DNA of 35,301 bases. Origin: Robiginitomaculum sp. Lineage in GTDB: Bacteria; Pseudomonadota; Alphaproteobacteria; Caulobacterales; Maricaulaceae. Location of the stretch: NCBI GenBank assembly GCA_016763315.1, contig JAESTZ010000080.1, positions 1-35,301 on the forward strand, in the 5' to 3' direction. Both the position numbers and the translations under genes were made by a program. The notes below the pieces were generated by a model that did not search any database, was not told the DNA's origin, and saw only the letters and a list, made by a program, of their open reading frames with translations. Positions within the stretch are counted from its first letter, which is position 1. Each line of letters starts with the position of its first letter. This document shows positions 24,708 through 27,697 of the stretch, piece by piece.

Positions 24708-25421
24708 ATGACTGATCCTGCCGACAAAGAGCCTCCCGCTAACAAACGAGGTCTGTTATTATGGCTTCGGAACAGTTTTTTAACCGGAATCGTTATTACG
24801 GCTCCTATTGGCGCCACCCTTTGGGTTGTGGTTAGTTTTATCAGTTTTGTCGATAATTCTATATTACCGATTATACCGGAGAAATATAATCCCGAGACGT
24901 ACCTGCCGATAGATTTACCGGGGCTTGGCTTGGTGATTGCCGTAGTAGGCTTGACGTTGCTCGGGGCATTAACCGCGAATATTTTCGGCAGAACCCTGAT
25001 TGGCTTTGGTGAAAGCTTGTTACGGCGGGTTCCATTTGTCAGCAATATTTACGAAGCAGTCAAACAGATCATTCACACGATTGTTACCGGCTCTGAAAAA
25101 TCTTTCCAAGACGCAGTAATGATCCAATACCCGCGTGAAGGCCTCTGGGCGGTCGGTTTTATTACTGCTGATGCGCGTGGCGAATTAAAAGAGTTTCTTG
25201 ATGATGATGTGGTTGCTGTTTTTGTCCCAACCACACCAAATCCGACATCGGGTTTTTTATTGTATGAAAAACGCGAGAACTTGCACGACCTAAAAATGAG
25301 CGTTGAAGACGCTGCTAAACTGGTTATTTCTGCTGGTTTGGTTTATCCGGAGCCCGGCAAGAAAAACAAAAAGTCGAAAAAAAACGGCAAGAAAAATAAT
25401 TCACCCGCTACCAAGCAATAA
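24708..25421 (+). CDS. DUF502 family integral membrane protein
   Basis: The start was placed at the ATG at 24708 with AAGGA at 24696-24700; the GTG at 24687 is in frame but overlaps this site. The 237-residue protein has two transmembrane helices (about residues 19-45 and 70-92), with ITAPIGATLWVV and GRTLIGFGESLLRRVPFVSNIYEAVKQI typical of DUF502. A soluble domain includes VFVPTTPNPTSGFLLY. It ends with a Lys/Asn-rich tail. The family's role is not established; the gene is often found beside recG in alphaproteobacteria, as here. The last 21 bases overlap the end of recG on the opposite strand. Confidence 0.9.
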   Translation: MTDPADKEPPANKRGLLLWLRNSFLTGIVITAPIGATLWVVVSFISFVDNSILPIIPEKYNPETYLPIDLPGLGLVIAVVGLTLLGALTANIFGRTLIGFGESLLRRVPFVSNIYEAVKQIIHTIVTGSEKSFQDAVMIQYPREGLWAVGFITADARGELKEFLDDDVVAVFVPTTPNPTSGFLLYEKRENLHDLKMSVEDAAKLVISAGLVYPEPGKKNKKSKKNGKKNNSPATKQ

Positions 25422-26117
25422 TAAGGCCTGATCTTGTTCAAATAGGTAAAGCAGAGTTTTTAATGCTTCACTGCGGTTGCCGATAAGTTCAGGATCATTT
25501 TCGACTTCCATTCTTGCTTGTGTGCGAGCAATTTCCAGCAATTCACCGTCTATGGCCAAATCGGCAAATCTGGTTCGTAATTGTCCCGATTGCTGCACTC
25601 CAAGCAAATCGCCAAATCCACGTAAAACAGCGTCTTTTTCTGCTATTTCAAAGCCGTCTTCGGTCTGGCGCATTATTTCCAATCGCTGTTTGGCGGTTTT
25701 ACCCAGTGGGTCAAGATATAGTAAAATACATGAGGACGGTTTATCCGAACGACCAACACGTCCACGTAACTGGTGTAATTGTGACAAACCAAAGCGCTCT
25801 GCGTGTTCAATGATCATCACGGTAGCATCAGGCGCATCAACGCCAACCTCAACTACTGTTGTTGCAACCAGTAATTTAATAGCGCCGGTTTGGAATTCTT
25901 CCGTTACTTGTTGTTTTTCTTTTGCCGTCATTCGTCCGTGTACTAAACCAACTTGTGATCCAAATATTTTTGACAAATCTTCAAATCGTTGTTCGGCAGC
26001 AGCAAGATCAGACTTGTCACTTTCTTCGACCAGCGGACACACCCAATACGCTCTTCCTCCGCTTTTTATAACCCGTTGCAGTCCGGAAATTACTTCTGGC
26101 ATTCGTTGTAACGGCAT
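25401..26117 (-). pseudogene. recG: RecG helicase, C-terminal part downstream of an in-frame TGA
   Basis: This is the second half of the ATP-dependent DNA helicase RecG, in the same frame as the first half and separated from it only by one TGA and six sense codons. It carries helicase motifs IV-VI intact: AYWVCPLVEES, LLVATTVVEVGVD, and QLHQLRGRVGRS with its arginine finger, followed by the RecG-typical DGFEIAEKDAVLRGFGDLLG. Without readthrough, this half could be made only from an internal start such as the ATG at 26117, which has a poorly spaced AAGGG. The coding sequence shows no further damage, so the stop is either very recent, a sequencing error, or tolerated. The 3' end overlaps the DUF502 gene tail-to-tail by 21 nt. 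Confidence 0.85.
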
Positions 26118-26135
26118 GGCCCTTGTGGTTATTGG

Positions 26136-27482
26136 TCATCTTCCGGTAGGTTTTTCGCGTATTTGTGATAATTCCATATCGCCAAAAGCCGCTAGTGTTA
26201 AAGTGCGCGGAATTGGTGTTGCAGTCATCACCAGTAGATCGGGACGCAAGCCCTTGGCTAATAATTGCAACCGGTTTGAAACTCCAATTCTATGTTGTTC
26301 GTCGATTATTACTAATCCTAATTTTTGGTACTCTACGGTCTCTTGGAACAGGGCATGAGTGCCGCAAATTACGTCAATTTCACCGGATTTTAGTCGTTGC
26401 AATATGTCTTTACGTTTTGCTGATTTGTCGCGCCCTGTTAATACCTCGACAGTAATCCCGGCAGGAGCCAATAATGAATTTAGCGATTTTCCGTGCTGTC
26501 TCGCCAGAATTTCCGTAGGTGCCATAATTGCCGATTGTCGTCCTGCTTCTAACGCATGAGCGCAAGCCAGTGCGGCAACAAAAGTTTTTCCTGATCCGAC
26601 ATCACCTTGCAACAAGCGGCTCATTTGTTCTGGTAATTGCATATCTTCGGCAATTTCACCATAAACTTTTATTTGGTCATTTGTTGGTGTAAACGGCGCG
26701 TTATGGATTACCTTTTCTATCAATTTGCCAGTGCTTTTTTGACTAAACCCGCCAAGTGACATTCGTTTGTTGCGCACCAATGCCAGTGCAAGTTGTTTTG
26801 ATAATAGCTCATCATAAGCAAGACGAGTTCGAATTGGATCCCGATCTCCAGCCTTTAGTGCCATCTGCGGATTATGTAATTGCACTATGGCAGCATTCCA
26901 GCTTGGCCATTTGCGCTCGATCATTAATGATTTTGAATTCCATTCAGCCAAGGCCGGAGCGCGCTTTAAGCTTTCGGATATAGCCTTTAGCAAGGTTTTT
27001 GATGCCAATCCTGCTGTCATCGGATAAACCGGCTCCAGGGTCGGCATTTCATCAGCTTTATTAAGCGGCAAAATATAATCTGGATGTAGCATTTGTAATT
27101 CACCGGCAAAGCGTTCAACATTGCCACTAACTATACGGGTTTCGCCTATGGGCAATTGCGATAATAACCAGTCTGGTCGTGCGTGAAACCAAGTCAGTGT
27201 GAGCCAACCACCGGCCTCTCTTGTTCGCACTTTGTATGGTAGGCCTTTGCGCGGTGCCGGTATGTGATCTTCGACTTCAACCTCAAAAGTTGCGATGCTG
27301 TTGCTTACGGCATTTGCCACCCCCGGACGCGCCCGACGGTCAATAATCGAATTTGGAACCATGAATAATAAGTCGACTATTCGACTAGCACCAAGCTTTG
27401 CCAGATTTTGTGCAACTTTAGGCCCGACACCGGATATGGTTTCGACAGGTGCAAATAATGGGAATAGTATTTCCGGGCGCAT
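26136..27482 (-). CDS. recG: RecG helicase, N-terminal part ending at an in-frame TGA
   Basis: RecG remodels stalled replication forks and Holliday junctions. This 448-residue part holds the N-terminal wedge/OB domain (about residues 10-190) and the first helicase domain. That includes FTPTNDQ, Walker A GDVGSGKT (293-300), APTEILARQH, the DEQH box (394-397), and TATPIPRTL of motif III. It stops at TGA (26138-26136 on the minus strand) right after IREKPTGR, where relatives continue with a residue such as Lys, Arg or Thr and then P. The next in-frame codons read PITTRAMPLQRM, the expected RecG continuation. The two parts plus the TGA codon total about 693 residues, a normal RecG length. The truncated product alone would lack motifs IV-VI and so should be inactive as a helicase. 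Confidence 0.9.
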   Translation of the reverse strand: MRPEILFPLFAPVETISGVGPKVAQNLAKLGASRIVDLLFMVPNSIIDRRARPGVANAVSNSIATFEVEVEDHIPAPRKGLPYKVRTREAGGWLTLTWFHARPDWLLSQLPIGETRIVSGNVERFAGELQMLHPDYILPLNKADEMPTLEPVYPMTAGLASKTLLKAISESLKRAPALAEWNSKSLMIERKWPSWNAAIVQLHNPQMALKAGDRDPIRTRLAYDELLSKQLALALVRNKRMSLGGFSQKSTGKLIEKVIHNAPFTPTNDQIKVYGEIAEDMQLPEQMSRLLQGDVGSGKTFVAALACAHALEAGRQSAIMAPTEILARQHGKSLNSLLAPAGITVEVLTGRDKSAKRKDILQRLKSGEIDVICGTHALFQETVEYQKLGLVIIDEQHRIGVSNRLQLLAKGLRPDLLVMTATPIPRTLTLAAFGDMELSQIREKPTGR

Positions 27483-27604
27483 TGTTAGATTATACCGTAA
27501 ATCAATTCAAAGGCGAGATGGATTGTATTATACTAAAAACACTGAATTAAACTCTAGTTTTTAGCATACTTTATTTTTGTGATCCATCAACTTATCCAAA
27601 AATA

Positions 27605-27652
27605 ATTTTAGTGGTCGCATTTTCTTGCCATAAAACCGGTTCCCACTTTTAC
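27605..27652 (-). repeat. Dispersed intergenic repeat, copy 2
   Basis: On the minus strand this reads AGTAAAAGTGGGAACCGG, then TTTTA, and further on GAAAATGCG. It is the close relative of the plus-strand copy at 10176-10213. It lies in the 215-bp gap between rnhA and recG, where nothing else is recognised. Confidence 0.65.
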
Positions 27653-27697
27653 TGGCAAATGCTTCAGGCTCACTTTTTGGGTCGATGGAGTATAAAA

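Follow-up and report, generated by a model that had tools for sequence, protein, structure and literature searches.

In a draft genome of Robiginitomaculum sp. (G000), the gene of the DNA helicase RecG is interrupted by a single in-frame TGA, which raises the question of whether the organism has lost a working RecG, produces it in an unusual manner, or carries an intact gene that is misrepresented in the assembly. The window, i.e., the whole stretch of DNA that was analysed (35,301 nucleotides), comprises the complete contig C57 of a draft assembly of 2.52 Mb in 122 contigs, which is 92% complete and, by its look, a metagenome-assembled genome.

The interrupted frame and its relatives

The gene is located on the minus strand and comprises the following features:

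25401..27482, minus strand: recG frame of 693 codons, counting the interior stop, followed by an ordinary stop
26136..26138, minus strand: in-frame TGA at residue 449 of 693; the next base is C
26139..27482, minus strand: upstream half of recG, with the wedge domain and the first motor (Walker A, DEQH, TATPIPRT)
25401..26117, minus strand: downstream open reading frame of 238 amino acids, with the second motor (QLHQLRGRVGRS) and the C-terminal part

The initial annotation had described a lone TGA (26138-26136) between two otherwise intact halves that are in the same frame, and this description holds. The 448 open codons before the TGA (27482-26139) are followed by 244 open codons that lead to the ordinary TGA stop (25403-25401); reading of both halves revealed no frameshift across the frame, and no further lesion was seen. 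When scanned separately against the family model NF008164, which is 704 positions long, the halves match positions 3-459 and 461-704, each alone scoring below the whole-protein cut-off. The order of the domains (wedge, two helicase motors, C-terminal part) is correct both when the halves are scanned separately and when the stop is replaced by X. The gene thus shares domains, motifs, and full length with ATP-dependent DNA helicase RecG (NF008164, TIGR00643; 1gm5, 9wm0) but differs in that its assembled reading frame is broken by the TGA. The stop aligns with residue 552 of the RecG of Thermotoga (1gm5), which we take to be the point where the first and second motors join. No second recG was seen in the assembly; the remaining helicase matches are far weaker and presumably represent Mfd and PriA. 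A 293-aa open frame runs antisense to recG (window 25477-26358, plus strand); it contains two stops in the nearest relative, G003, and by this evidence is not a gene.

All 17 relatives in the genus have a match to recG, the matched part being free of stops in each, and 16 of them reach residue 449 (the match in G015 is a contig-edge fragment that falls short of the site). The alignment of close relatives that the initial annotation had proposed as a check shows a sense codon at this position in all 16 (Leu in G003, whose RecG has 91.6% amino-acid identity, Lys in eight, Thr in four, and Gln in three), which makes the TGA private to G000. The residue tolerates change, and the suggested origin of the stop from a CGA codon finds no counterpart among the relatives, none of which carries Arg at the site. 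In the order as a whole, 286 of 299 genomes match recG at 1e-120, and among the matches listed at that threshold, only G000 has a stop in the gene; the other 13 genomes have either partial or paralogue matches at 1e-25 (11) or none (2). In G205, a single-contig genome of the same order, recG is found in two frames around residues 326-339 (L122, L141), which is due either to a genuine loss of the gene or to an erroneous indel. A search with the RecG of G000 found six named loci, a set that may omit the window's own record; four of them belong to Robiginitomaculum MAGs with 75-76% identity. The titles and abstract openings of the papers retrieved on RecG with premature stops, pseudogenes, and split genes mention no interrupted recG, and the recG of Wolbachia is described in an excerpt of PMC4224334 as being under strong purifying selection.

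The selection on the C-terminal half was a further check that had been proposed. The comparison of G000 with G003 yields a dN/dS of 0.073 for the part preceding the stop (dS 0.75) and of 0.025 for the part following it (dS 1.0); the values of the control pair G004-G010 are 0.058 and 0.026, respectively, and four other computed pairs were unusable because their synonymous sites are too diverged. On the branch of G000, clear amino-acid changes number 4 in the downstream part and 10 in the upstream part, with 5 and 19 further unclear ones, respectively (counts that exclude the eight N-containing codons in recG of G003). Neutral evolution along the whole branch would have caused about 160 to 200 nonsynonymous changes in the downstream part, which therefore was free of constraint along at most a few per cent of this length. 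Relaxed selection after the stop was not found in these comparisons, and the strong constraint on the downstream half implies that the stop is either very young or absent; a very young pseudogene is still compatible with the data. An excess of odd residues in recG, apart from the stop itself, was considered as well and is absent, which counts against a consensus error: among 304 sites that are invariant in 15 other relatives, G000 differs at 5 and G003 at 7, one of the latter in an N-bearing codon. Given the full constraint on the downstream half, the loss of RecG mentioned in the initial annotation is unproven.

Interior stops elsewhere in the assembly

A comparison with G003 places the stop in recG among other lesions of the same assembly. 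When 250 of 954 open reading frames of G003 were paired with 0.95 Mb of G000 (at least 75% identity; 93,607 aligned residues), six interior stops were flagged in G000, and seven weak ones near the ends of alignments were set aside. Three of the flagged stops (L117:475, L153:2684, and L149:8177) were dropped on inspection by eye, which located them before the true start of over-extended open reading frames (in the case of L153, a downstream start was observed). The three that lie in real genes are the TGA in recG, a TAG in purM (L143:14972, contig C23), and a TAA in pyrB (L105:17964, contig C15). The stops in purM and pyrB were again seen in G000 alone and in none of 15 relatives, two genomes being unmatched in each case; the site is occupied by Leu in all 15 relatives in purM and by Glu in 11 of 15 in pyrB. 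Since purN, which adjoins purM, and a dihydroorotase-family gene adjoining pyrB are both intact, the two pathways do not look abandoned. An intact second pyrB was not found in the assembly, where the only other match (148 bits) remains below the cut-off of 237 bits; at 92% completeness, an unseen second copy is possible.

Two open reading frames of the forward survey matched in two frames. One is the over-extended frame in L149, in which the shift precedes the gene; the other, a 399-aa frame in L062, adds one frameshifted long open reading frame to purM and pyrB as the other conserved genes of G000 that are broken among the 250 pairs. The latter (about position 1319 of L062, contig C113) encodes a membrane protein that is shifted relative to G003, appears permease-like by eye, and has no match among the NCBIfam models.

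The reverse survey, which paired 260 of 783 open reading frames of G000 with G003, yielded two interior stops, both in the frame antisense to recG, and none in a real gene of G003; seven weak stops were set aside. Four open reading frames of G000 match G003 in two frames, three of which are long (664, 917, and 356 aa). The contrast of three stops with none is small, recG was preselected for its stop, and G003 is no clean control, given these two-frame matches and its 3,867 N in 0.80 Mb, which may mask miscalls. The recG of G003 itself contains eight single-base N; the Ns of this genome are possibly masked polymorphic or low-quality bases.

Judging from the sequences compared here, the TGA in recG probably stems from one erroneous base in the G000 draft consensus, and the gene of the organism would be intact. 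This reading is favored because the same assembly contains three different stop codons, each of them alone in an otherwise intact gene, and because purM and pyrB are biosynthetic genes whose pathway neighbors are intact. Thin coverage may have left miscalled bases scattered in the consensus, and such miscalls would be the common cause of the stops in recG, purM, and pyrB; that a base of a minority strain was taken into the consensus is less likely. This reading falls short of certainty, since few stops distinguish the two genomes and G003 is rich in N. Since 332 of the 6165 possible single-base changes in recG of G003 create a stop, the presence of three in 281 kb of coding DNA corresponds to roughly 2 miscalls in every 10,000 bases, a rate that counts recG, which was itself picked for having a stop. 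The kind of base change was considered as a sign of miscalling and proved uninformative; all three changes are transversions, an outcome whose probability lies between 0.2 and 0.5 for the ratios applied. Among the options that the initial annotation had listed side by side, i.e., error, nonsense mutation, readthrough, and a split protein, the error is best supported, and programmed readthrough finds no support, given that a stop is absent from all 16 relatives.

There is a precedent for such an error. According to an excerpt of Cooley and Wright 2024 (PMC11017572), many pseudogenes with internal stops are assembly errors that are tied to low coverage and poor reads; indels arising from long reads are mentioned in an excerpt of PMC6785717. 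The case of G000 resembles the spurious pseudogenes in the excerpted account of PMC11017572 in that an isolated in-frame stop with intact flanks is absent from relatives and that several unrelated genes of one assembly are affected. It differs from that study, which, according to the same excerpt, re-assembled reads, in that the stop of G000 is known from the assembled sequence alone; moreover, the nearest relative (G003) falls well short of the 99.9% nucleotide identity that the filter described there requires. The interrupted recG is most likely an assembly mistake rather than new biology and, as biology, has little significance. The lesson is that an isolated in-frame stop in a single gene of a draft genome calls for a look at the rest of that assembly before one invokes recoding, readthrough, or gene loss; in the case of recG, purM and pyrB tipped the balance.

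Readings with a true stop

A real nonsense mutation that is very recent or still segregating, which would cut RecG after the first motor and leave the cells without a working enzyme, is rather unlikely but the most credible of the readings that accept the stop. recG is often dispensable, and because this is true also for Escherichia coli, a real nonsense mutation in recG is not implausible. Codon 449 is only one base away from the codon of G003, the two-frame recG of G205 indicates that breakage of the gene may occur in the order, and the repeat element just upstream of recG, which is absent in G003, could be a second hit. These points are opposed by the few amino-acid changes after the stop, which amount to a small fraction of those expected under neutrality, and by the stops in purM and pyrB, since a joint loss of these two genes would be unexpected in a self-sufficient cell.

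It is improbable that the living population carries the TGA and produces RecG either as two pieces, cut exactly between the motors and restarted 18 bases on, or in small amounts through readthrough. Both forms stay compatible with the data in view of the full constraint on the downstream half, and in either of them the fork-rescue activity of RecG would be dosed by translation. A real stop would make the organism a natural test of whether RecG can work in two pieces.

Low-level readthrough of a real TGA that yields some full-length RecG, which is the slightly better of the two forms, is very doubtful. In E. coli, termination at TGA is weak when the next base is C, and the C after the stop, to which the initial annotation had drawn attention, is indeed present; the tolerance of residue 449, which is Leu, Lys, Thr, or Gln in the relatives, and the constraint on the downstream half also fit this reading. 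By contrast, no stop occurs at this codon in any of the 16 relatives, and the C that comes next is part of a Pro codon shared by 15 of them, so that the context requires no selection for leakiness. A structure after the stop is absent: the 77 bases that follow it fold less well than the majority of shuffles (z +1.45; 191 of 200 shuffles fold at least as well), in line with the earlier statement that no convincing SECIS-like hairpin is present, and a 97-base piece spanning the stop has a z of +0.59. Moreover, TGA ends 63 of the 182 genes of G000 that were aligned to their last residue, and the interior stops of purM and pyrB are of different kinds (TAG and TAA, respectively).

Even less credence is due to a split RecG, in which the TGA would end a chain of wedge and first motor, an ATG 18 bases on would restart the second motor, and the two chains would cooperate. 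The location of the stop at the presumed motor-motor junction suits this arrangement, as does an AAGG shortly before the ATG at 26117, which is absent in the five relatives compared (G003 is one base away from it). The same ATG, however, is present in all five of these relatives, whose recG is unbroken, and none of the 16 full-length relatives has a split gene. The end of the AAGG is just 3 bases ahead of the ATG, a closer spacing than usual.

Recoding of the TGA, either as selenocysteine or in a changed genetic code, is practically negligible, even though the frame is open after the TGA as in selenoprotein genes, which G000 does not otherwise resemble: SelA was found in none of 18 genomes of the genus (in the control, 4 of 14 genomes including E. 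coli had a match, one over the cut-off), the only tRNA-Sec match of G000 over the cut-off (C113:57461) is a tRNA-Ser with anticodon TGA (in every one of the 14 controls, the model also matches tRNAs of other kinds), the hairpin is lacking, and none of the 16 relatives has Cys at the site. Neither SelA nor a true tRNA-Sec was thus found in the 92% of the genome that is represented, and no tRNA with anticodon TCA was detected in the window and the 40 of 60 stretches of G000 that were scanned. Selenocysteine, which had been considered unlikely from the outset, was rejected on these negative results for SelA, tRNA-Sec, and hairpin. A changed code was rejected because TGA ends genes normally, both in the window, where it terminates 7 of the 23 main open reading frames listed, and in the gene pairs of G000 and G003, where 65 of 66 genes that end with TGA in G003 end with a stop also in G000 (56 with TGA and 9 with TAA; the remaining one has TGG). 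The assertion that the code is not globally changed and that TGA serves as a stop for gcvPA, ispH, and metC (gene labels by eye) is thereby borne out.

The repeat element upstream of recG

The gap between rnhA and recG comprises 215 bases in G000 and only 51 bases in G003, where it is free of the repeat. The additional sequence in G000 contains the following feature:

27529..27697, no strand assigned: one copy of a dispersed mosaic repeat, lying in the rnhA-recG gap and missing from that gap in G003

Further copies are located in L117, L105, L153, L155, L051, L097, and others; blastn pieces of the repeat number 59 in 0.95 Mb of G000, including that of the window, and likewise 59 in 1.18 Mb of G003. 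The repeat consists of outer arms (TATACT...AGTATA) and a REP-like middle module, which is variably present: it is missing in one copy (L083:18108-18004) and stands alone in another place (L173:9925). It looks like one small element nested within another, and a 150-base part of it folds well (z -3.4).
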